Part shown: positions 20,384 through 39,418 of the stretch, piece after piece
How positions within the stretch are numbered: the stretch's first letter is position 1
How the letters are laid out: the number at the start of each line of letters is the position of its first letter
Assembly: GCA_018435125.1 (NCBI GenBank)
Contig: JAHDNZ010000030.1
Coordinates: 1 to 52,747 of the forward strand
Origin: Bacillota bacterium
GTDB taxonomy: Bacteria; Bacillota; DTU065
Length of the DNA stretch: 52,747 bases
Direction of reading: 5' to 3'
Program-made: the position numbers and the translations under genes
The notes under the pieces: model-generated
Databases searched by the model: none
Told to the model about the DNA's origin: nothing
What the model saw: the letters and a program-made list of their open reading frames with translations, nothing else

Positions 20384-21478
20384 TCATCGCCCCCTTTTTA
20401 TAGCCAGAAAAAGACTCCAAAAGCCAATAATAATATTTTGAGTCCAGGCTGCTAAACACGGTGGTAGGTGACCGCCTTCTCCTAGCACCGAAGATAATGT
20501 AAGCAGGAGATAGTAAATAAAAACAATAGCAATACTCAATCCAAATCCCCTTGCAGAACCCCCTCTTGGAGAAGATACTGCCAGTGCAGCTCCCAGCAAT
20601 GCAAATATCAGACTGGCAAAAGGCACAGATATCTTTTGATGATACTCAATCAGGAGTTTTTTAACTTTCTCGCCTTGTTGTTGCAGTAAATTAATCTTTC
20701 TCTTTAACTCCCTAATTCCCATTTGGTTAGGGCTTTTTTGTATCACCTTAACATCTTGAGGTTGATATTTAATAGCTACCGGCTGGATACTTTTTTGAAA
20801 TGTCATCTCTGTAGAGGAAACATCATTATGAAAAGTAGTTTTACCTTCCTCAAGGTACCAGGCCTCATCACTCCAGATCATTTTATTAGCTTGTGTTGTG
20901 CTTTCAGGTTTTCCTTCAATAAATGTAAAGTAACTAACATTAGAAAATGTGTTTGTATCAGGATCAAATTCAGATGCATAGATAAGTGTTTTTAGCTTAC
21001 CGGCTTCATAATCCTCTAAAAGCACATTGTGTTTTATCTTAGGAAGAGGTTTTTGTCTGACCATCTGGTTAAAGAGCATTTCATAACGGATAATTGCTGC
21101 CGGAGCCATAACATCGTTTACAAAAAGACCAAACAGTGTTATGCACAGCCCAAAAACAATAACAGGTCGTATAGTACGCCAAAAACCCTGGCCGCAAGCT
21201 TGAATAGCAATGAATTCACTATTTTGAGACAGCTTACCTAAAGCCAGTAGCACACCCATCAAAGTTGCCATAGGCAGTGCATAGACCAGTATTTGAGGAA
21301 ATTTCATCATAGCTAAATCTAAAGCTGTAAAAAAGGATGCTCCTACACTAACAGCTACTCGGGCTAAATAAACTAAATCTGCAGCCACAAAGATCCCGGC
21401 AAAGGCCAACACGCCAAAGATAAAGGGAAAAATCAGCTCACTTATTATATACCTATCAATAATTGAACAAAGTATCAT
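20384..21478 (-). CDS. LptF/LptG-family LPS export permease (partner adjacent to lptB)
   Basis: 364 residues with three N-terminal membrane helices, a large periplasmic beta-jellyroll region (about 120-270) and three C-terminal helices, the YjgP/YjgQ layout. [18 protein letters not shown] and [19 protein letters not shown] are typical. With LptB and its sister at 38336 it should form LptB2FG, which extracts LPS from the inner membrane. It overlaps the lptB stop by 4 nt (ATGA). Which of LptF or LptG it is cannot be told by eye. Confidence 0.92.
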
Positions 21479-22194
21479 AAGGAAAACCGCTCCCCTAAGT
21501 AGAGGCGTTTGGCATCAGGATCAGTGGCTATATCTATTGAACTTCCTGAAACTAAAATGCGGCCTTCATGCATGATATAGGCTCGATCTGTAATTGATAG
21601 CGTTTCTCTTACATTATGATCAGTAATTAATACCCCTAACTGTTTTTCTTTTAACATGGCAATAATCTCTTGAATATCTGCTACAGCTATAGGATCTACA
21701 CCGGCAAATGGTTCATCTAAAAGAATAAAAGAAGGATCTGCCGCAAGTGCCCGTGCTATTTCAGTACGTCTTCTCTCTCCTCCTGATAGGCGAAATCCTT
21801 TGGTTTTTCTAACAATACCAAGCTTAAATTCTTCGATTAACGCATCTGCTCTGCTTTTTTGTTGCTTTAGATTAAAGCCTCTTGCTTCAAGAATAGCCAT
21901 GATGTTTTCTTCAACACTGAGTTTGCGAAATACTGAAGGCTCCTGAGGTAAATAACCGATACCATTTAAGGCTCGTTTATACATGGAAAGATGGGTGATG
22001 TCTTTTCCGTCTAAGAAGATACGTCCACTATTAACACTCTCAAGACCTACAATCATATAAAAAGTGGTGGTTTTCCCGGCGCCATTTGGCCCCAAAAGCC
22101 CAACAACCTCGCCGTTTTTAACTTCAATTGAGACATCATTTACTACCCGGCGTTGACTGTATATTTTCACAAGCTGCTTTGCTACAATGCTCAA
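21475..22194 (-). CDS. lptB: LPS export ABC transporter ATPase
   Basis: 239 residues. Walker [10 protein letters not shown], signature [16 protein letters not shown], Walker [17 protein letters not shown] and an H-loop in [11 protein letters not shown] match LptB rather than generic ABC ATPases; ERRR and FAGVDPIAV are characteristic. The start is TTG at 22194 with GGAGGTGG upstream, overlapping the preceding stop by 4 nt (TTGA). It powers LPS extraction with the two LptF/G permeases. Confidence 0.95.
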
Positions 22195-29557: not shown

Positions 29558-30385
29558 CTAATCTCTTACCAGCTGCTCAACTATCTTTTGTGCTAACAAA
29601 GCATTATGCCTATGACCGGTTCTTACAGCTATGATGTGGGCTAAAAGACGATATTCCCCAATAAGCGACAGATCGCCATAGAGATCTAGAAGCTTATGCC
29701 TGGCAACTTCATTTTGAAAGCGCCGTTTATTGGCAAAGCCGTTATTATCGATTAGAACAACCATGCTCTCGTCTCCGCCTAAAGCTAATCCTTTTTGACG
29801 CATATCGGCTAACTGCTCCTTAAAGGCAATGGTTCGTGCCGGAGCTAGATCAGTTAGAAAGTCATCTCTGTTTTCTAAGTAGTCATAAAACATATCCGGG
29901 ATAGACATTCTTTCAGAAACAAAAGTATAAGAAAGTCTTAGTTCAGAAGCTGGTACAGCAACTATAAAAGCTTGTCCATCTTTAACAGTTATGGTCTCTT
30001 TGAGCTTAATAACCGGTTTGGCCTCCTGTTTTACTATACCACCTAAAGCAAGTAGCTTGTAAAATTCCAGCGCTGAGCCATCTAAGGCCGGAGGCTCCGG
30101 ACCATCAATCTCTATTTTTAGATTGTCCAGTCCTAGGCCCTGGCACGCAGCCAGAAAATGCTCTACTGTGAGAATTCTATCATTTCCTACCGCTAAGGCT
30201 GTACACAGAGGAACCTCTAAACGGTTTTCCCAAAAAACTCTAACTTCCGGTTGATTCTCTAAATCAGTTCTGATAAATCGCCTACCATAATATGCCTCTT
30301 GAGGCAGTACTTTCATTGTTACCATTTTACCTGTATGAAGGGCTCTCCCACTAATTATTACAGGATTTGCCAGTGTTTGTTGCAT
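29558..30385 (-). CDS. lpxC: UDP-3-O-acyl-N-acetylglucosamine deacetylase
   Basis: 275 residues. Zinc ligands H76 (TVEHFLAAC), H230 and D234 (RHKLLDLYGD), and the catalytic H258 in TGHRHN are all in place, as is DGSALEF. It catalyses the committed step of lipid A synthesis. No SD lies within the usual distance of the ATG; the nearest strong one (30430-30434) is 44 nt upstream across a hairpin. Confidence 0.96.
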   Translation of the reverse strand: MQQTLANPVIISGRALHTGKMVTMKVLPQEAYYGRRFIRTDLENQPEVRVFWENRLEVPLCTALAVGNDRILTVEHFLAACQGLGLDNLKIEIDGPEPPALDGSALEFYKLLALGGIVKQEAKPVIKLKETITVKDGQAFIVAVPASELRLSYTFVSERMSIPDMFYDYLENRDDFLTDLAPARTIAFKEQLADMRQKGLALGGDESMVVLIDNNGFANKRRFQNEVARHKLLDLYGDLSLIGEYRLLAHIIAVRTGHRHNALLAQKIVEQLVRD

Positions 30386-30591: not shown

Positions 30592-30626
30592 AGTAAGAGG
30601 CAGGTCCAAAAGGCCTGCCTCTTACT
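30592..30626 (-). terminator. 13-bp hairpin overlapping the stop of the ABC ATPase gene
   Basis: AGTAAGAGGCAGG and CCTGCCTCTTACT pair perfectly around 9 nt, and the stem includes the stop codon at 30622-30624. No U-tract follows, so it may block 3' decay or terminate weakly rather than act as a classic terminator. Confidence 0.45.
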
Positions 30627-31362
30627 GTGCTAACTTACTTAAAGCATCTTTGGTATCCAGAAGTCTTTCTCTATACATTACACCAAGATAAGAGGATGGT
30701 TGAACAAATATTTTTTGGGGAGGAGCTTCTTCTACAATCTTGCCAGATTCCATAAGAACAAGCCGATCTGCCACTTTTAAAGCAAAGGGCATCTCATGGG
30801 TTACTACCAGCATCGTTTTTTTCTGAGCTAAAGAATCCATAATTCTTAAGATTTCATGTACATACATCGGATCTAGAGCTGCTGTTGGTTCATCCCAAAA
30901 GATAATATCTGGATCTAAAGCCAGAGCTCTGGCAATACCCACCCTTTGTTTTTCACCCCCGGAGAGCTGTCTGGGATAACGAAACCTTTTTTCCCAAAGG
31001 CCAACTGATTTTATTGCTTTTTCAGCTTTAGAAAAATCGTGCTCTCCTTCCCAAAGAGCCAGCAAAACATTTTCCAGCAGAGTAAAATGCTCAAGCAACT
31101 GAAATTCTTGAAAAACTATACCCATCTTACGTCTTTTTTTCCGTAGCATCTTTTCTGAAAGGGCTTGCAAATTGACACCTTCAAACCAGACTTCTCCTTT
31201 TTGGGGTTTAATAAGTCCCAAAGCTACTCTTATAAGCGTAGATTTGCCGCAACCGCTAGGCCCTGTTAAAACCACTGTTTCCCCTTCGTTGACGGTAAGA
31301 TTGATGTCTGATAGAACCTTAACCTTGTTTTTTTCTAAATATATGTTGTGTAATTCAAGCAT
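30622..31362 (-). CDS. ABC transporter ATPase (polar amino acid-type)
   Basis: 246 residues. Walker A GPSGCGKST, Q-loop FQEFQLLEHFTLLENV, signature LSGGEKQRVGIARAL, Walker B IIFWDEPTAALDP and the H-loop in VVTHEMPFALKVADR are complete. The nearest relatives by pattern are GlnQ/HisP-type importer ATPases. It overlaps the unusual permease-like gene by 8 nt, so the two form one system. No substrate-binding protein gene is present. Confidence 0.88.
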   Translation of the reverse strand: MLELHNIYLEKNKVKVLSDINLTVNEGETVVLTGPSGCGKSTLIRVALGLIKPQKGEVWFEGVNLQALSEKMLRKKRRKMGIVFQEFQLLEHFTLLENVLLALWEGEHDFSKAEKAIKSVGLWEKRFRYPRQLSGGEKQRVGIARALALDPDIIFWDEPTAALDPMYVHEILRIMDSLAQKKTMLVVTHEMPFALKVADRLVLMESGKIVEEAPPQKIFVQPSSYLGVMYRERLLDTKDALSKLAQ

Positions 31363-33205
31363 GCTTAAACCTCCTTAGTGAAAGCAGCTTGCGACGATTA
31401 ATCAGCTGCCAAAGACCAGGCCTGCCATCTGGAATGATAACCTGGCGGTAAAGTTCTCTCTTGGAAAGGCCTAATGCTTCTCCCGCTTCAATGCTTTTTG
31501 GGTTAAGGGGAGATATGCGGTTGGCGATAGTTATTAAAAAGGCACTGCCTAAGCCTCCGGCCATTATATAGATTACTTTAACTAAAAGTGTAGTTGAAAA
31601 AGGCATTATCAGAGCTATAAGGCTTATTTCAGTTATGCCAAGAAGCCAACCATATAAAGGAGCGAGGAAGTTTTGTTTCATATGCAGGTAACTACCCCAT
31701 AATGAATGATCAATAGCAATAAAGACCCAAAGAAGAATAACCGCAGCTGCTAAGGCAGCTAAGGGTACTATGCCGCCAACAACTCCTCCGATTTGACTTT
31801 TAATATCCTCTTTTATTTCAGCGGCGGGTTTACAGACAACTCCCGGAATCGAGGGAGCTTTCTCGGTAGTAACAACCTTGAGTGATTTCTGACGAGTTAT
31901 GGCTTCTATATCGCGCCAGCTCTTATAGATGTCTTCGTCACTCCAGGAGGGTAAACTTTCTTTAAGGGTTAATAGGGGATCTGCAGGCAAAGTTTTAATC
32001 CATTCATAAACTTTGTTTGCTAGATCAGCCCGGAAGTTTTCTGGCAATCTCCCAATTCGATCCCACAATATTAATATCTCCAATTTAGATCTTAGGGCTT
32101 CAGGCAACTCCAGATTTTGTTTTCTAGCCAGCTGTTCTAAGTCTCTAAGCAAAAGTGAAAAGTCCTGGCCTTGAAGAATTTTGGTTGCTAGTTCTTCGGC
32201 ACTTGTTTTTAAATCAATAGCCTCTGAAACAGGCTTCCAAGACTCAAGATCCCGACGCGGACTTTCTAAACGATATGTTGGCAGTGCTTCTTTAAGACGT
32301 CCACTGCCATCAAGAAGATAAGCTTTTTCGTCACCTGTTAGCTTTAAGGAATCTCCACTTACAAGGTAGATACCATCTGAAAACACACGAGCACGGAATT
32401 CACTTTTAGGTTTGGAACCAATTTTAAGAACTTGGTTGGATATAACAAGATCAGCTCCGACCGGAAGTTTTTTATCAAAGACTAATCTAGAGTTATAACT
32501 TTTTAGAAGCCTTACTGCATCACCCATAACTCCTTCGGTCGAAGCAGCTAAATACCAGTATTGTTTCCCCTCTAAGGCTTTTTCTATTTCTTCGCGAGCT
32601 TTAGCAGCTTCCTGATTGGTCTGATCGGTTAATTCAAGTTCCCAAACATAATAGGGAGCAGTTAAAGTTCTTAGCTTATTCTGAATAACTTCTAAATTTT
32701 TTCTATTGCGAGCAACCACATAAAGCCCTGTTGGCCCTTTAGCTGCAAAACGTATTTCAGGCCAGTTGTTTATCTGTTTAATAATTTTAGGATATACCTC
32801 TTGAGGTATCCCTTGCACTATAATGGCAGTATCCAGTAAAAGAGCTAATCCCGCATAGCCTGGTAGAGGGCTCACAAGTTTAGCCACCTCATCCAAAGCG
32901 CCATTTTTCAAATCCTGTTCGCCAAAACCTATCAAAATGTGAGTTTTATCACCCAAAGTTTTGCCTATCCGATAATGAAAGGCTTCTCTGCCCGAGTATG
33001 TTTCTTGTAAAGCATGCAAAAAGCCCAGAGTATTTTTCTTTTCTACCTGGACAACAACTTGGTAATCTTTTCCGCCGACCAAATCATCTAGTCCCCTTTG
33101 TACATAGAAGGCAAAGCCATGACCAGCAGCAAGAAGTGTAACTGTGAGCAAAACAATTTCTAGCAAAATCACTATGGCTAAATCTGTGTTAATTCCACCA
33201 CGCAT
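31355..33205 (-). CDS. Permease-like ABC component with a ~450-residue extracytoplasmic domain
   Basis: 616 residues. One N-terminal helix (about 9-27) is followed by a large region (28-470) with alpha/beta and helical parts that should lie outside the cytoplasm. Three helices follow (about 476-498, 513-535, 540-560), then an EAA loop (572-597: EAGEALGLSKRELYRQV, PDGRPG) and a short basic tail. The EAA loop is the ATPase docking motif of importer permeases, but the two helices that normally follow it are missing. The ATG has a GAGGAGG. I do not recognise the big domain. The ATPase gene overlaps the end, so the short C-terminus looks natural rather than a frameshift. Confidence 0.65.
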   Translation of the reverse strand: MRGGINTDLAIVILLEIVLLTVTLLAAGHGFAFYVQRGLDDLVGGKDYQVVVQVEKKNTLGFLHALQETYSGREAFHYRIGKTLGDKTHILIGFGEQDLKNGALDEVAKLVSPLPGYAGLALLLDTAIIVQGIPQEVYPKIIKQINNWPEIRFAAKGPTGLYVVARNRKNLEVIQNKLRTLTAPYYVWELELTDQTNQEAAKAREEIEKALEGKQYWYLAASTEGVMGDAVRLLKSYNSRLVFDKKLPVGADLVISNQVLKIGSKPKSEFRARVFSDGIYLVSGDSLKLTGDEKAYLLDGSGRLKEALPTYRLESPRRDLESWKPVSEAIDLKTSAEELATKILQGQDFSLLLRDLEQLARKQNLELPEALRSKLEILILWDRIGRLPENFRADLANKVYEWIKTLPADPLLTLKESLPSWSDEDIYKSWRDIEAITRQKSLKVVTTEKAPSIPGVVCKPAAEIKEDIKSQIGGVVGGIVPLAALAAAVILLWVFIAIDHSLWGSYLHMKQNFLAPLYGWLLGITEISLIALIMPFSTTLLVKVIYIMAGGLGSAFLITIANRISPLNPKSIEAGEALGLSKRELYRQVIIPDGRPGLWQLINRRKLLSLRRFKHA

Positions 33206-33228
33206 AAGGCTCCCTCCTCTTGCCTTAA

Positions 33229-33237
33229 TTATAGCAG
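33229..33237 (-). promoter_or_regulatory. Extended -10 promoter candidate for the ABC pair
   Basis: TGCTATAAT on the minus strand: a consensus TATAAT with the extended TG, 23 nt before the permease-like start and after the terminator of the aminotransferase gene. No good -35 is visible. It suggests the pair is its own transcription unit. Confidence 0.5.
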
Positions 33238-33289: not shown

Positions 33290-33318
33290 AAAAAAAGAGG
33301 AGTGTTTAACTCCTCTTT
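33290..33318 (-). terminator. Intrinsic terminator downstream of the ABC-pair promoter boundary (after aminotransferase gene)
   Basis: AAAGAGGAGT and ACTCCTCTTT pair perfectly around 5 nt, followed on the minus strand by four further T. It begins 2 nt after the aminotransferase stop. Confidence 0.85.
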
Positions 33319-33319
33319 G

Positions 33320-34699
33320 TTATTTGCGTCCAAAAACACCTGCTAAAATAGAACTCGAACTCTTTACTGCCATTCCTAGAAAACTTTTATTGGCTTCAAA
33401 AATTTTATCAAGCGAATCAACCACATGATCAATTTCCTCTTTCGTTACTACAAGAGGTGGTTCTAGTCTGACCACATTAGGGTTATTTAGAGTATAGGCT
33501 GTAATAACTCCATATTTGTTTTGCAGTTGTCCCGCAACCAAAGAGCCCAAATACTCTTCCGAAGCTCGCGAGATAGCTCCTCCGCTTAACTTATCCAGCA
33601 TACCTTTTGGTTGTTCAAATTCTAAGCCGATTAAAAGCCCTCGGCCACGAACTTCTTTAATCAAACCATATTTTTCCTTTAGTATCTGAAGTTTATCTAA
33701 TAGATAATCTCCTAGCTCTAGGGCTTTATCAGCAAGATTGTCGTTTTTAATAACCTCTAAAGCAGCTATCCCAGCAGCAGCAGCCCAAGTATTGCCACCA
33801 AAGGTAGTCGTGTGTAAAAGGCACTTTTCTTTGGTGCCATAGGCTTTATTCCACACCTCTTCAGTCGTAATAAATACTGAAGTAGGTATAATGCCGCCAC
33901 TTAGAGATTTGGCTATACACATAATATCAGGCTTGGCTTCATCCCATTCACAGGCAAACATTTTGCCAGTTCTGCCAAGACCAGTTTGAATTTCGTCAGC
34001 GATAAATAGTGCCCCATAGGCGTGACAGATCTCCTCTACAGCTTTTAAATAACCTTTATCAGGAACTATAATTCCACCTTCACCTTGGATGGGTTCAACG
34101 ATAAATGCAGCTACATCGCCCTGCCTTAATCGCGTTTCAAGTGCTTTAGTATCATTAAAAGGAATCTTATCACAAGCCGGGACCAGAGGTTTAAAAGGTT
34201 CCTGATACTTTTGTCTGCCGGTTAGTGATAAAGCACCCATGGTCTTGCCATGAAAAGAACCTATCGTGGAAATAATCGTTGGCTTTTGGGTAGCAATGCG
34301 AGCCGCTTTAAGAGCACCTTCTACTGCCTCAGCACCACTGTTGCCAAAGAAACAGTGCTTGAGATCCCCAGGTGTAATCTCAGCTAGATTATGTGCCAGC
34401 ACTCCAGCCAAAGCCGGGAGTGAGGCTTGCATAAAATTAGGGCGCCCCACCACCTTTTTTATGGTCTCAATGACATAAGGGTGATTGTGTCCGGTATTTA
34501 AAGAGCCATACCCTCCTAGAAAGTCAAGGTATTCATTGCCTTCACTATCCCATACTTTAACACCCTCAGCTCGGACAAATAGTTTATCAAAATTAAGCAT
34601 GCCAAGCAATGAAGCAAAAGCTGTGTTGCCATATTCGCGATGGAGATCGATGATAGATTTTCTATCTAGTTTTAAGGCTTCTTCAATTGTAATCAACAA
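33320..34699 (-). CDS. Class III aminotransferase, putrescine/ornithine type
   Basis: 459 residues, PLP-dependent fold type I. It has EYLDFLGGYGSLNTGHNHP, SGAEAVEGALKAARIA, the SFHGKTMGALSLTG loop, VEPIQGEGG, IADEIQTGLGRTG and the PLP lysine in CIAKSLSGGI. Length and N-terminal extension resemble putrescine aminotransferase (PatA) more than ArgD. The start is TTG (two in tandem) after GGGGGA, 9 nt past lptA. Its presence inside the LPS-transport block is odd; a link to diamine or amino-sugar supply for the wall is only a guess. Confidence 0.82.
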   Translation of the reverse strand: MLITIEEALKLDRKSIIDLHREYGNTAFASLLGMLNFDKLFVRAEGVKVWDSEGNEYLDFLGGYGSLNTGHNHPYVIETIKKVVGRPNFMQASLPALAGVLAHNLAEITPGDLKHCFFGNSGAEAVEGALKAARIATQKPTIISTIGSFHGKTMGALSLTGRQKYQEPFKPLVPACDKIPFNDTKALETRLRQGDVAAFIVEPIQGEGGIIVPDKGYLKAVEEICHAYGALFIADEIQTGLGRTGKMFACEWDEAKPDIMCIAKSLSGGIIPTSVFITTEEVWNKAYGTKEKCLLHTTTFGGNTWAAAAGIAALEVIKNDNLADKALELGDYLLDKLQILKEKYGLIKEVRGRGLLIGLEFEQPKGMLDKLSGGAISRASEEYLGSLVAGQLQNKYGVITAYTLNNPNVVRLEPPLVVTKEEIDHVVDSLDKIFEANKSFLGMAVKSSSSILAGVFGRK

Positions 34700-34708
34700 C
34701 TATTCCCC

Positions 34709-35347
34709 CTACTTGGTTTTAGTTTTAAACTCTAATTTACCCTTGACTTTATAACTACCTTTGTCTACATTAGCTTCTAAATAGCCATCAGGACTACTTA
34801 AGGTACGATCTTCTTCAATGAGCTTTATATTGCCTGATAACTTTGCCAAACCAGTTTGATCACTAAATTCTAGTATATCACCAAAGATGGTCTTCTTCTC
34901 ATCGTTAATAATTATATCACCTTTGGCTTTAACATCCTTAACTTCGGTCCATAGTTCCACCTCGTTGGCATTAATTGTTATGGCTTTGTCTTCTCTTTTT
35001 TGCTTAATACAAACGCCGCCTAAAAGCTTAGCATATTTATTGTCGGTATCAAAGAAAACCTCTTTAGAAGTAATATCCATATTATCATTCATAATAATGC
35101 ATTCACCAAAAGCCTTTGCGATCTTCGTCTTGGTGTTGTAGATCAACTTTTGGGTAATAATTTTTGTTTTTCCTTGGCTAATAACTATCTCCTTGCCTAC
35201 AACAGTAACCTCATCACCATCGCCGCCTACCATTTCACCGTCTTCACTGACAGTAAACCATAACTCTTCTTCAGCTGCAAAAGCTGTAAAACAAATAATA
35301 AGCACTAAGACCACCATAAGAAGTGCTGGTTTTTTCTTCATAAACAT
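34709..35347 (-). CDS. lptA: Periplasmic LPS bridge protein LptA (OstA-like)
   Basis: 212 residues. A signal peptide (MKKKPALLMVVLVLIICF) precedes repeated short OstA strands such as ITSKEVFFDTDNKYAKLLGG, INANEVELWTEVKDVKAKGD and IFGDILEFSDQTGLAKLSGN. These beta-jellyroll units polymerise into the LPS bridge between LptC and LptD. Start ATG 35347 or 35341; both lie past an unusual hairpin that separates them from the SD. Downstream of lptC in the same orientation. Confidence 0.88.
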   Translation of the reverse strand: MFMKKKPALLMVVLVLIICFTAFAAEEELWFTVSEDGEMVGGDGDEVTVVGKEIVISQGKTKIITQKLIYNTKTKIAKAFGECIIMNDNMDITSKEVFFDTDNKYAKLLGGVCIKQKREDKAITINANEVELWTEVKDVKAKGDIIINDEKKTIFGDILEFSDQTGLAKLSGNIKLIEEDRTLSSPDGYLEANVDKGSYKVKGKLEFKTKTK

Positions 35348-35383: not shown

Positions 35384-36007
35384 TTATTTAGAGCCTATTT
35401 TCACTGTTAAGGGTCCTTTTATGCGGTAGTTTTGAGTTTCCCAGTTAAATTCAAGACTTGAACCGGTTACTCTTAGACCCTCGTTATCTTTTAATTCTAC
35501 ATTTTCGCTGGCGTAGAGAATTTTTTTGGGTACATCGCCTGAAAGCTTGTCTGAGATAAGTGTGTACCTGCTGGTTTGTACAACTGAGGTACCCTCGGTT
35601 GTAAACTGATCCTCTAAGATTTCATAGATCACCTTAGGTGCAGCTAATTCAAAATCTTTTTTCACTCCTGTGATTAGTACGTTTCCTATAGCTTCCAGCC
35701 TTTCATTTTTTTCATACCAATTGGCAATATTAGCTGTTAGTTTCAGCTCAGGCTCTCCTTCACTATAGGTAAACACTTCTCCTAGTGCCTGAAACTCAAA
35801 ATGGCTTTCATACTCCACCAGTTGTTCGGCTTCCAGAAAAAAGGTCGGTTTACCATCTTTGCGTTTAACAATCTGAATCATCTCAACCACTTTTTTGTAT
35901 TCACTAGGTAATGGCTCGCGTACAGGCTTTTCAGGTGCCTGCTTGCCACAACCGGTTAAAAGTAATAAGACTGTAGCTAACAAGATAAAGTGTTTAGGCA
36001 CCCTCAA
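35384..36007 (-). CDS. lptC: LptC-family lipoprotein
   Basis: 207 residues from a TTG at 36007 with GGAGG 6 nt upstream; the frame stays open into lptD, to 36088. A lipobox LLTGC follows the leader. The mature part has the LptC jellyroll (FFLEAEQLVEYES, LTANIANWYEKNERLEAIGNV, LELKDNEG-like strands). LptC docks on LptB2FG and passes LPS to LptA; usual LptC is membrane-anchored, and a lipid anchor would replace the helix here. 22 nt after lptD, 37 nt before lptA. Confidence 0.85.
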   Translation of the reverse strand: MRVPKHFILLATVLLLLTGCGKQAPEKPVREPLPSEYKKVVEMIQIVKRKDGKPTFFLEAEQLVEYESHFEFQALGEVFTYSEGEPELKLTANIANWYEKNERLEAIGNVLITGVKKDFELAAPKVIYEILEDQFTTEGTSVVQTSRYTLISDKLSGDVPKKILYASENVELKDNEGLRVTGSSLEFNWETQNYRIKGPLTVKIGSK

Positions 36008-36029
36008 AGTTATCCTCCCTCCAAGTAGC

Positions 36030-38321
36030 TTAATTTCCCGAACTAAGAGCAGAGAGCATATCACTGCTAAATTCCACACCACTACCACTTAGTTTGACTT
36101 TCATCGGCTTATCACCAATAGCTTTAATTTTAAACTCCAACCAAACGGCCTTATTGATAGAATCATAAGTTAGATCAAGCTCCCTACAATGCAGATCTCT
36201 GCTTAGGGTAACTTTGAGAGTGGTGTATTTATTGGTTTGAGGATTGAATACAGCTTCACCTCGTAAACCATACAAACCATATTTTAAGATGCCTTTACCG
36301 TTTAATTCCTTGAGCTGCCATTTGCCTTTGTCTTTGCTGTAGTTGATGCGTCCTTCTAAACTCAGATTTTCCATAGGTTCTACTTTTATGTTTCCGGCCA
36401 CCTTTATAGCCTCAAAAGGAACTAAATTATAATCGTGTTCAAGATTAGCCGTAAGCTTCCCGTAACTAATGCGGTGTGTGCTAGATAAGGTTTTAAAAGT
36501 TGCCTTAACCAGATCATATCCCGTTTTTATCTGCGTAGTAACTACAGAAAGATTATTATAGACACTAAAATCCAAGGCATGGATGTTGGACAGTTTATCA
36601 AAGCTAAACGGTGAATTGCCATAAACATCACGTTTAGTATAGTCGAAGGTAAAATTCCAGTTCTTTGCCGGCTGATAGCTAAGGCCTAAAGCACTACGCC
36701 AAGAAAGAACATAGGGGCTAAAGTTCTTTAAATTATAAACTGTACCCTGGCCCTCACCCAGAAGATTAAAGTTTAGTCCGGTAGCAATTTTATATGTTTT
36801 CCGGCCCAAAACTCCTCTAAAACTTAATTTATCACTTTCGATTTTTTTAGGTTCCTCTTTATAATGACCAATGGTAGTCTCTAGCATAATAGGCCAGGTC
36901 AGAAGATTTAGACTACGGGTTCTTAAAACTAATTCCGGTTGCCGAAATAACCTGCTGTAGGTAGAGGTAGTCGCTTCTTCCTGACTTTTATCCTCTTGCT
37001 GCCACTTAAGGGTACCTGATAAATATTTGGCATTGTAATTCAAGGTGCTATCGTAACTTAAAACTGTAATCCAAGGTTGATTGGCCTTTTGATAATAACT
37101 TAAATTTACTCCCAGATTAGTGGTTAAAACCTTACTAAGTTTTAGAGATTGGCTGGTTTCCAATTTAACTTCTTCTTTATCATTTGCAGGTGAATTCTCA
37201 TCACTATAACTAAATCTTAAATTACCAGTATAGCTACTACCACTAAAACTATAATTCCAACTGGTAGCTTTTAGCAATTTAGGAGCAAACTCGGTATAAT
37301 CCTCTTTATAAGCACCTGTCCCCGAAAGTTTGAACTTATCTTTAGTAAGGTTAAAACTTCCTGAGGTGTCAAAAAGCTTAAGTTCATTGGTAAAGGGGGA
37401 ATAAATAAGGTAATAACGGGTATTTAGATTCTTTTGATCCTTAGAGTAGGCATGCTGCAGTCCTTGACCTATTCCCAACTTATTTAAATAATCAATGTTT
37501 ATCTCACCTTTGTTGTAATTATTTAAAGTATAGACATAGGCGAGTTTGACAAAAAAGCCCTCTTTAGCCGATGACCCAAACTGTGGGAACTTCCAATAGT
37601 TCTTCTTTTCTTTTAAAGAAACCTGCCAATACGGCAAATATAGCAGGGGTAGTTTACCCTCTTTATAGTAGAGATTGCGCATAACTAGTTTATCATCTTC
37701 ATAAATCTCGATTATCTTGGCAGCGATATGATAATGAGGGTTTTCAAGATTACAAGTGGTAATCCGGCCTCCTTCTAGACGCAGAAATTTTTCTTCAAAG
37801 CTCATATTATGACCATAGAGGTAAATATCATCCTTGAATTTTTCATTTTCAATGTGACCTCTTACCCCTTTGATGGTACCTGTTTTTGTTTTGTAATTAT
37901 AGACAAGCTCATCCCCGGTAAATTCTTTTGAACCCTCTACAACCCTAACTCCCCCGGAAAAACGCACTACATTGTTTTCCAAATCGACTTCAGCTATATT
38001 ACCTTTGGCTGTAAAGTTTGAACCGCGAATATTGACATCACCTTTAATTGTAACCTTCTTTTCATCGCCAGCTAGTTCATCATCAGCTGTTACCAAGATC
38101 TCATCCTCAGCAATATTATCAGGCTCATCCTGGTTATCTCCACCATCTTCAATAGCATCAGTATCCAAGTCACTTTTTTTGTCAGTTGTTTCTTCTAGTT
38201 CAACTGCCGAGGTGGGATTGTCACTTGGGGATGATTTGGTATCATCATAAATTGTTTCCTCAGCCAACGCACACATGCCAAGGGCTACTATTATTCCGAT
38301 TATAAGGCAGACCTTTTTCAA
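36030..38321 (-). CDS. lptD: LPS assembly OM protein LptD
   Basis: 763 residues from a TTG at 38321 (GGGGGGG 6 nt upstream); the frame runs open to 38357 and would overlap the previous gene. A signal peptide is followed by an acidic Asp/Glu-rich low-complexity stretch (about residues 30-80). An OstA-like jellyroll comes next (VTIKGDVNIRGSNFTAKGN, FTGDELVYNYKTKTGTIKG), then a barrel of about 500 residues with YYKEGKLPLLYLPYWQVSLKE, a typical LptD segment. It inserts LPS into the outer leaflet. No LptE is seen in the window. Confidence 0.9.
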   Translation of the reverse strand: MKKVCLIIGIIVALGMCALAEETIYDDTKSSPSDNPTSAVELEETTDKKSDLDTDAIEDGGDNQDEPDNIAEDEILVTADDELAGDEKKVTIKGDVNIRGSNFTAKGNIAEVDLENNVVRFSGGVRVVEGSKEFTGDELVYNYKTKTGTIKGVRGHIENEKFKDDIYLYGHNMSFEEKFLRLEGGRITTCNLENPHYHIAAKIIEIYEDDKLVMRNLYYKEGKLPLLYLPYWQVSLKEKKNYWKFPQFGSSAKEGFFVKLAYVYTLNNYNKGEINIDYLNKLGIGQGLQHAYSKDQKNLNTRYYLIYSPFTNELKLFDTSGSFNLTKDKFKLSGTGAYKEDYTEFAPKLLKATSWNYSFSGSSYTGNLRFSYSDENSPANDKEEVKLETSQSLKLSKVLTTNLGVNLSYYQKANQPWITVLSYDSTLNYNAKYLSGTLKWQQEDKSQEEATTSTYSRLFRQPELVLRTRSLNLLTWPIMLETTIGHYKEEPKKIESDKLSFRGVLGRKTYKIATGLNFNLLGEGQGTVYNLKNFSPYVLSWRSALGLSYQPAKNWNFTFDYTKRDVYGNSPFSFDKLSNIHALDFSVYNNLSVVTTQIKTGYDLVKATFKTLSSTHRISYGKLTANLEHDYNLVPFEAIKVAGNIKVEPMENLSLEGRINYSKDKGKWQLKELNGKGILKYGLYGLRGEAVFNPQTNKYTTLKVTLSRDLHCRELDLTYDSINKAVWLEFKIKAIGDKPMKVKLSGSGVEFSSDMLSALSSGN

Positions 38322-38335
38322 ATCAATCCCCCCCC

Positions 38336-39418
38336 TTAAACCCTTTCCACTTCCCACAGAAGGCTAACTCCAATAGTTAAAAAGAATACTGTTGGAAGCC
38401 AGGCTCCCAGTATGGGAGCTATAATTCCTTCTATGCCCAGGGTACGAAAAAGAGCACTTAATACATAGTAAATTAATGCAATTCCAATGGCTAGCCCTAC
38501 ACCTAAGAAAGTTCCACCCTTACCGAATTTGATACTAAGAGGTGCCCCTAAAAGGACAAACACTAAACTTACTAAAGGGATAGATACCTTGCGATGATAA
38601 TCAACAATCAATTCATTTACATTTGCGCCCGAGCGGCTAAAAATAGCATTCTGCTCTGCCAGTTCTTTTCTGGTCATTTCACCGGTGCTTTTTTGCACCC
38701 CGAAAATAGTATCTATATCCTGACCGATATTAATGGCCACTTTTTGAAACTTTTTTTCACTAGTAACAAAACCAGCTTCGTCAAATTCTCTACTTATACC
38801 ATCTTTTAATATAAAGGTTTTTTCTTCATAACAGGCTTCTTTGGCTGAGATTATCTCTGGCAACCCGATATAGTTAGTCCGATAAACCAAAACATCCTTC
38901 ATTACACCATTGGTGCGATCTACAAAACGGACATAAAAATAGTAATTGCCTGTCCCCTTAAAAAATACATCTTCTTCGATTTGGGGTAAGTTATCCTGGA
39001 AAATAACTCTTCTAATAACCTCTTCAAACTCCGCATTAGCCTTGGGAACTATGTAATCACCTAATAAAAATGCCATCGAGCTAATAACAATTCCGAGCAA
39101 AATAAGTGGCGTTACCAGTGACACAAAACTAATACCTGCTGTTCGCATAACAGTCATCTCTGAGTCTTTAACCAAACGGCCTACTGACATAAATACTGCC
39201 AGAAGTACTGCCACAGGTAATGTTAAAATTATTATTTCAGGTAGCTTAAACCAAATTAGCTTTAAAACTACAGCCAAAGGGGTCCGCCGTGAAACCAAAT
39301 AATCCATCAGTTCAAAAAGAAGATCACTCATAAGAATCACTGTCATTCCAGCGATGCCCATTAAAAAAGGTGTGGTAAATTCTTTCAGTATGTAGCGTTT
39401 AAAAATTTTATTGTGCAT
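38336..39418 (-). CDS. LptF/LptG-family LPS export permease (partner adjacent to lptD)
   Basis: 360 residues, six-helix YjgP/YjgQ layout: IFKRYILKEFTTPFLMGIAG at the start, a periplasmic jellyroll (about 115-255), then KVSIPLVSLVFVLLGAPLSI. Second of the two permeases needed for LptB2FG; the other is at 20384. It ends 15 nt before the lptD start, in one operon. Confidence 0.92.
   Translation of the reverse strand: MHNKIFKRYILKEFTTPFLMGIAGMTVILMSDLLFELMDYLVSRRTPLAVVLKLIWFKLPEIIILTLPVAVLLAVFMSVGRLVKDSEMTVMRTAGISFVSLVTPLILLGIVISSMAFLLGDYIVPKANAEFEEVIRRVIFQDNLPQIEEDVFFKGTGNYYFYVRFVDRTNGVMKDVLVYRTNYIGLPEIISAKEACYEEKTFILKDGISREFDEAGFVTSEKKFQKVAINIGQDIDTIFGVQKSTGEMTRKELAEQNAIFSRSGANVNELIVDYHRKVSIPLVSLVFVLLGAPLSIKFGKGGTFLGVGLAIGIALIYYVLSALFRTLGIEGIIAPILGAWLPTVFFLTIGVSLLWEVERV

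Follow-up and report, generated by a model that had tools for sequence, protein, structure and literature searches.

A permease–ATPase gene pair between the lpt and lpx genes of diderm Bacillota, probably an unrecognized part of outer-membrane building

The gene pair and its surroundings

The window analyzed here is a single stretch of 52,747 nucleotides, in which all the genes described below lie on the reverse strand. Pfam matches in the segment 34709..39418 (PF06835, PF13100, PF03968, and PF03739) identify two LptA/C-like genes (34709-35347 and 35384-36088), an LptD-like gene (36030-38357), and an LptF/G gene (38336-39418). On the other side lie LpxC (29558-30385, with PF03331 matched at G000:C43:29579-30382) and, within the same segment 27469..30385, FabZ, LpxA, and LpxI, whose names are based on sequence and gene order. 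Between these two groups stand a permease gene encoding 616 residues (31355..33205) and an ABC ATPase gene encoding 246 residues (30622..31362), their reading frames overlapping by 8 nt. The ATPase is nearest to the amino-acid importer ATPases GlnQ and ArtP. Its catalytic motifs (Walker A, Walker B/E, and D-loop) are preserved intact, as they are in 37/37 homologues checked. The coupling by overlap of a GlnQ-like ATPase to a 616-residue protein, proposed in an earlier note on this DNA, is thereby confirmed. The pairing of the two genes extends well beyond the window, the ATPase lying directly downstream of the permease in 40/40 loci, with a distance-matrix correlation of 0.84 between the two proteins versus 0.76 between permease and LpxC.

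An intrinsic terminator (33294..33318, 10 bp stem with a T tail) separates the pair from the aminotransferase gene upstream, and an extended −10 promoter-like element, TGCTATAAT (33228..33236), can be read in the sequence, 23 nt ahead of the start codon of the permease. Given these two features, the pair looks like a transcription unit of its own in the window. The element is an extended −10, as claimed earlier, and a perfect one, but it has no −35 and is absent from the output of a two-hexamer consensus scan. The hairpin described downstream of the ATPase is also present, as GAGGCAGG-N9-CCTGCCTC (30597..30621), without a T run.

The pair is usually placed between lpt and lpx genes, in the recurrent order lptFG-lptD-lptC-lptA-pair-lpxC-fabZ-lpxA-lpxI-lpxB (gene names from Pfam matches and sequence). 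In Lpt-positive genomes devoid of the pair, lpxC is mostly preceded by other genes, and nothing recognizable stands at the place of the pair. The class III PLP aminotransferase gene that separates the pair from the lptA-like gene (33320..34699) is kept at this spot only in the GTDB family of the window (L039-L041), and is probably outside the system. In line with the initial description, neither a substrate-binding protein nor a second permease gene could be recognized next to the pair, whether in the window itself or among the recurrent neighbors across the 40 loci.

Architecture of the permease

The permease consists of a first transmembrane helix (TM1, residues 9-27, 33125..33181, from hydropathy and the AF2 model), an external domain of about 420 residues (residues 44-467, 31805..33076, from DSSP of the model), three further helices (TM2-TM4, residues 468-560, 31526..31804, from hydropathy, alignment, and the model), and a C-terminal EAA-type NBD-docking loop (residues 566-603, 31397..31510), which is the best-conserved stretch of the protein. 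Only 13 residues follow this loop. The reading frames and the AF2 model (pLDDT 85, pTM 0.59) thus agree with the layout initially read from the sequence. In the model, helix 5-43 extends TM1 into the periplasm, the other helices being predicted at 468-510, 514-533, and 540-559, with the EAA helices at 569-593. The TM1 and TM2 helices are 39-47 residues long both in this model and in that of the Sporomusa ovata permease. Asp499, in the long TM2 helix, is invariant in the homologue alignment, as are A574, G579, P592, P596, G597, and N603 in the EAA loop. The TM2-TM3 loop is variable among homologues (9-42 residues), the conserved dock being C-terminal instead.

The two helices that normally follow an EAA loop had been reported missing, and the 41 aligned homologues bear this out. 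They all stop 6-60 residues after the invariant Asn closing the loop, and a hydrophobic segment beyond it is found in none of them (41/41). They share before their end the motif xAGxALGLxxxxIMREIVIPxGRPGLLxLLNRxK, and the gap between the EAA loop and the ATPase start is too short for two extra helices. Orthologues in three genomes of the window's GTDB family align over their full length (63-70% identity) with the same C-terminus, and more distant homologues of 668-986 aa are found across the phylum. In one genome (G190, L169:5872-8775, reverse strand), permease and ATPase even form a single reading frame of 967 aa, with the permease at residues 13-691 and the ATPase at 740-960. Since all aligned homologues end after the loop and this fused frame runs on into the ATPase, the absence of the two helices is a property of the family. 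A frameshift at the C-terminus, named from the outset as what would overturn the description, or a truncation, is ruled out by this end common to 41/41 homologues. An apparent triple fusion of permease, ATPase, and LpxC (G373, L170, a 1333-aa ORF) was rejected: only its permease part is real, the remainder being GC-rich out-of-frame read-through.

Relationship to known ABC systems

The permease family has no NCBIfam assignment and no Pfam match at gathering level. There is a sub-threshold BPD_transp_1 match over residues 489-596 (18.4 bits versus a gathering score of 26.4), which recurs at E ≤ 0.1 in 16 of 36 homologues, with a best value of 2.9e-4. Compared by hhalign with proteins of the same genome, the C-terminal profile scores 94.3% with type I permeases, 0.4% with FtsX-domain proteins, and 1.4% with LptF/G; with MlaE of Sporomusa/Pelosinus-type genomes, the score is 0.2%. 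The eight best PDB profile matches are type I permeases (MetI, an ArtQ-like amino-acid permease, PotB, and PotC) aligned at the EAA loop, the best match of the C-terminus having an E-value of 0.014. Pfam detects no FtsX (PF02687), MlaE (PF02405), or LptF_LptG (PF03739) domain in the permease. These profile comparisons, together with the sub-threshold match, back the EAA loop first read from the sequence, and indicate a distant homology between the C-terminal part of the protein and the permeases of type I importers.

The likeness to type I importers (BPD_transp_1: MetI, ArtQ/GlnP-type, PotB/C, PstC) covers the EAA loop, the preceding helices, and the ATPase of GlnQ/ArtP type. The pair differs by the lack of a binding protein, of a partner permease, and of the two helices after the loop, and by the external domain of about 430-712 residues inserted after TM1 in the various homologues. 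In type I importers, the helices following the EAA loop line the pathway. A true type I importer, with the external domain as built-in binding protein and a reduced channel, would fit the ATPase type and the homology of the loop to MetI and its relatives. It appears quite improbable, however, given that the two helices are absent in every homologue, that no binding-protein fold is found in the external domain by sequence or Foldseek, and that the distribution of the pair tracks the outer membrane rather than nutrition.

The topology (TM1, external domain, TM2, TM3, TM4) is instead that of the type VII systems (MacB, LolCDE, FtsEX, and YbbAP), as are the predicted helical stalks and ferredoxin/porter-like units. 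Type VII systems have been described as working by mechanotransmission, with four TM helices and without a transmembrane pore (PMC12646458). There is no sequence relation between them and the permease, the ATPase of the pair is of importer type, and type VII systems couple through a TM2-TM3 coupling helix, whereas the permease docks through its C-terminal EAA loop. The analogy in mechanotransmission would thus be one of topology only, since the coupling loop is C-terminal and not between TM2 and TM3.

This shared topology raises the question of an FtsEX-like actuator or sensor, in which the ATPase cycle would move the external domain without any lipid being handled, in order to switch a periplasmic enzyme (a peptidoglycan hydrolase or an LPS-modifying enzyme) or to report on the lipid status of the envelope. 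Most homologues have a helical or coiled-coil external part, and the pair comes without a partner lipoprotein or channel gene of its own, both of which would suit such a device. We consider it unlikely, because the profile relation to FtsX is absent, the neighbors are Lpt and Lpx genes and not cell-wall hydrolases, and conservation follows LptFG.

Two other systems deserve comparison. MlaEFD is also an outer-membrane-linked ABC system of diderms, but the pair has no MCE protein and its permease is unrelated to MlaE. Lpt (LptB2FG-C-A-D) is the genomic neighbor of the pair and co-occurs with it, but the permease is unrelated to LptF/G, and the genomes already hold their own LptB/F/G. With no family match and no confident fold, the statement that the pair fits no importer, FtsEX, Mla, or Lol layout is upheld.

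The external domain

According to our reading of the predicted secondary structure, residues 50-191 may form two tandem beta-alpha-beta-beta-alpha-beta units of ferredoxin/porter-like type. A beta-rich unit (residues 240-314) and a helical unit (residues 328-437) follow in the DSSP assignment of the AF2 model. The helical unit comprises about 110 residues in the window permease versus more than 200, with a 43-residue helix, in the S. ovata model, and the external part ranges from about 430 to 712 residues across homologues. In view of these longer relatives, the GTDB family of the window carries a shortened external domain. Because the domain of the relatives is larger and has a helical/coiled-coil region, it is plausible that it spans part of the periplasm.

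A profile search with the external domain, as initially suggested, retrieved no sequence relative. In hhalign comparisons with FtsX, LptFG, LptD, and MlaE, no relation was seen, the best score being 4% with LptFG. Foldseek found no fold match to the window permease model in the PDB at E ≤ 0.001, and a single match to the S. ovata model, MmpL5, which is badly superposed. Profile matches of the full permease alignment to the PDB are mostly coiled-coil proteins. An MCE-like external domain was considered and rejected: matches to the MCE family are confined to the coiled coil, alongside SMC and other coiled coils, and the ordered beta part has no MCE-domain match. Since the domain has neither a recognizable homologue nor a confident fold match, the sequence implies no cargo.

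Through its tandem ferredoxin-like units and coiled coil, the domain weakly resembles RND and MmpL5 porters in Foldseek, which might evoke a MacB/RND-like efflux pump carrying its own periplasmic adaptor. This is highly improbable, as the Foldseek matches either lack significance or superpose badly (rmsd above 30 Å) and no TolC or adaptor gene was recognized as a recurrent neighbor.

Distribution across Bacillota

The permease was searched for in 399 Bacillota genomes, a genome being counted as positive at E < 1e-20. It is present in 77 genomes. LptF/G is also found in 75 of these, and the other two are assemblies in 250-480 contigs. Roughly 300 genomes without Lpt are devoid of the permease (Fisher p ~1e-57, a statistic that ignores phylogeny). 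The suspected link with LPS and outer-membrane genes, for which a survey in diderm Firmicutes had been proposed, is thus borne out, the pair being almost confined to LptFG-positive genomes. Named carriers include Sporomusa ovata, S. silvacetica, Pelosinus fermentans, P. propionicus, and Fuchsiella alkaliacetigena, beside many Bacillota MAGs. An alignment-based scan of 84,980 species, with strict seed patterns, gave matches only in records titled as Bacillota lineages. When the window permease alone was used as query in the contig scan, no relatives appeared; the alignment query found them. Pelosinus genomes have two permease copies on different contigs (L108/L114, L104/L155, and L105/L110).

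LpxC and LpxD are dispensable for this association. LpxC is found in 85 of the 399 genomes, 63 of which are also permease-positive, and neither LpxC nor LpxD occurs in 14 permease carriers, which belong to three GTDB families and are mostly more than 90% complete (G064, G080, G102, G116, G136, G149, G165, G175, G200, G225, G240, G249, G273, and G319). At least 12 of these 14 retain LptFG and LptD-like genes. Since the pair persists there together with LptFG/LptD, it is tied to the Lpt/outer-membrane system and not to lipid A synthesis. Judging from their gene content, these carriers are possibly LPS-free diderms equipped with an Lpt system. Among the 77 Lpt- or permease-positive genomes tested for an LptD-like protein (E < 1e-40), it is found in 50 of the 54 permease-positive versus 6 of the 23 permease-negative ones, as counts that ignore phylogeny. 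Conversely, Lpt occurs without the pair in Veillonella/Selenomonas-like families, and LptFG-LptD without the pair in families f36 and f111. The pair is thus not essential to Lpt everywhere, since the Veillonella/Selenomonas-like families manage without it.

The distribution also bears on a possible phospholipid transporter replacing Mla in the diderm Bacillota that lack MlaEFD. MlaE is present in 9 of 54 permease-positive versus 14 of 23 permease-negative Lpt genomes (Fisher p 2e-4), and Mla is absent from Halanaerobiales and most Limnochordia (PMC10665443). However, Mla and the pair occur together in 8/8 named Sporomusa/Pelosinus-type genomes, which rules out a strict replacement, and also in f55. 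Members of f36 and f63 have neither system, the MlaE contrast is carried by few lineages, and the external domain shows MCE-family matches in its coiled coil only. Such a substitute for Mla is distinctly unlikely.

Proposed function

The pair is probably part of outer-membrane building, because it is conserved in Firmicutes bearing an outer membrane, lies beside lipid-transport genes, and is absent from relatives lacking an outer membrane. More specifically, with a probability of about 0.45, it would encode a homodimeric, channel-less ABC machine whose mechanical action in the periplasm serves the traffic of outer-membrane lipids or LPS near Lpt. We infer a complex of two four-helix permeases and two ATPase subunits, operating in Bacillota with an outer membrane and Lpt, each ATPase docking on a C-terminal EAA loop that would descend from a type I importer permease. 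Most likely, no cargo would be moved across the inner membrane, given the lack of the pathway-lining helices after the loop and the topology with a large external domain between TM1 and TM2-TM4. ATP-driven motion of TM1 and TM2, whose helices continue into the periplasm, would instead drive the external domain, as in MacB, LolCDE, and FtsX. A lipid or LPS-like glycolipid might thereby be extracted, handed over, or gated next to Lpt; alternatively, the machine could actuate the LptF/G-LptA/C-LptD bridge.

A broader proposal, which we regard as doubtful, is that the pair represents a separate architectural class of ABC systems. An importer would have lost the helices following its EAA loop and gained a giant periplasmic domain after TM1, becoming a type I-derived, channel-less mechanotransmitter that would power Lpt-linked lipid export as a second ATP-driven engine. 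It would do so in diderm Bacillota, including lineages that have LptFG-LptD but no LPS synthesis genes.

Outer-membrane biogenesis is poorly known beyond Proteobacteria, and the loss of outer membranes is studied above all through diderm Bacillota. A conserved ATP-driven system between their lpt and lpx genes, with no name in NCBIfam or Pfam, is of interest in this context, and its occurrence in Lpt-positive genomes devoid of LpxC and LpxD makes the cargo of Lpt in the absence of LPS directly testable. A search of the main texts of freely accessible papers found no description of the pair. The outer-membrane gene cluster was described by Antunes et al. in 2016, with three unknown conserved genes listed (PMC5007114), and the main text presents none of the three as an ABC system.

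Some variation is also seen in the Lpt genes. The cluster of the window contains two separate LptF/G genes (20384-21478 and 38336-39418), the former adjoining an ABC ATPase gene (21475-22194) that is probably LptB. The second and the LptD-like gene are separate, overlapping by 22 nt, whereas elsewhere LptF/G and an LptD-like protein form one ORF of 1034-1092 aa (L053:258-3536 and L057:58-3162, forward strand; L049:8792-11977, reverse strand). The L053 ORF has PF03739 in its N-terminal part and PF03968 and DUF3769 in its C-terminal part, and similar frames of 1050-1140 aa are found in G039, G149, G175, G200, G249, G275, and G299.
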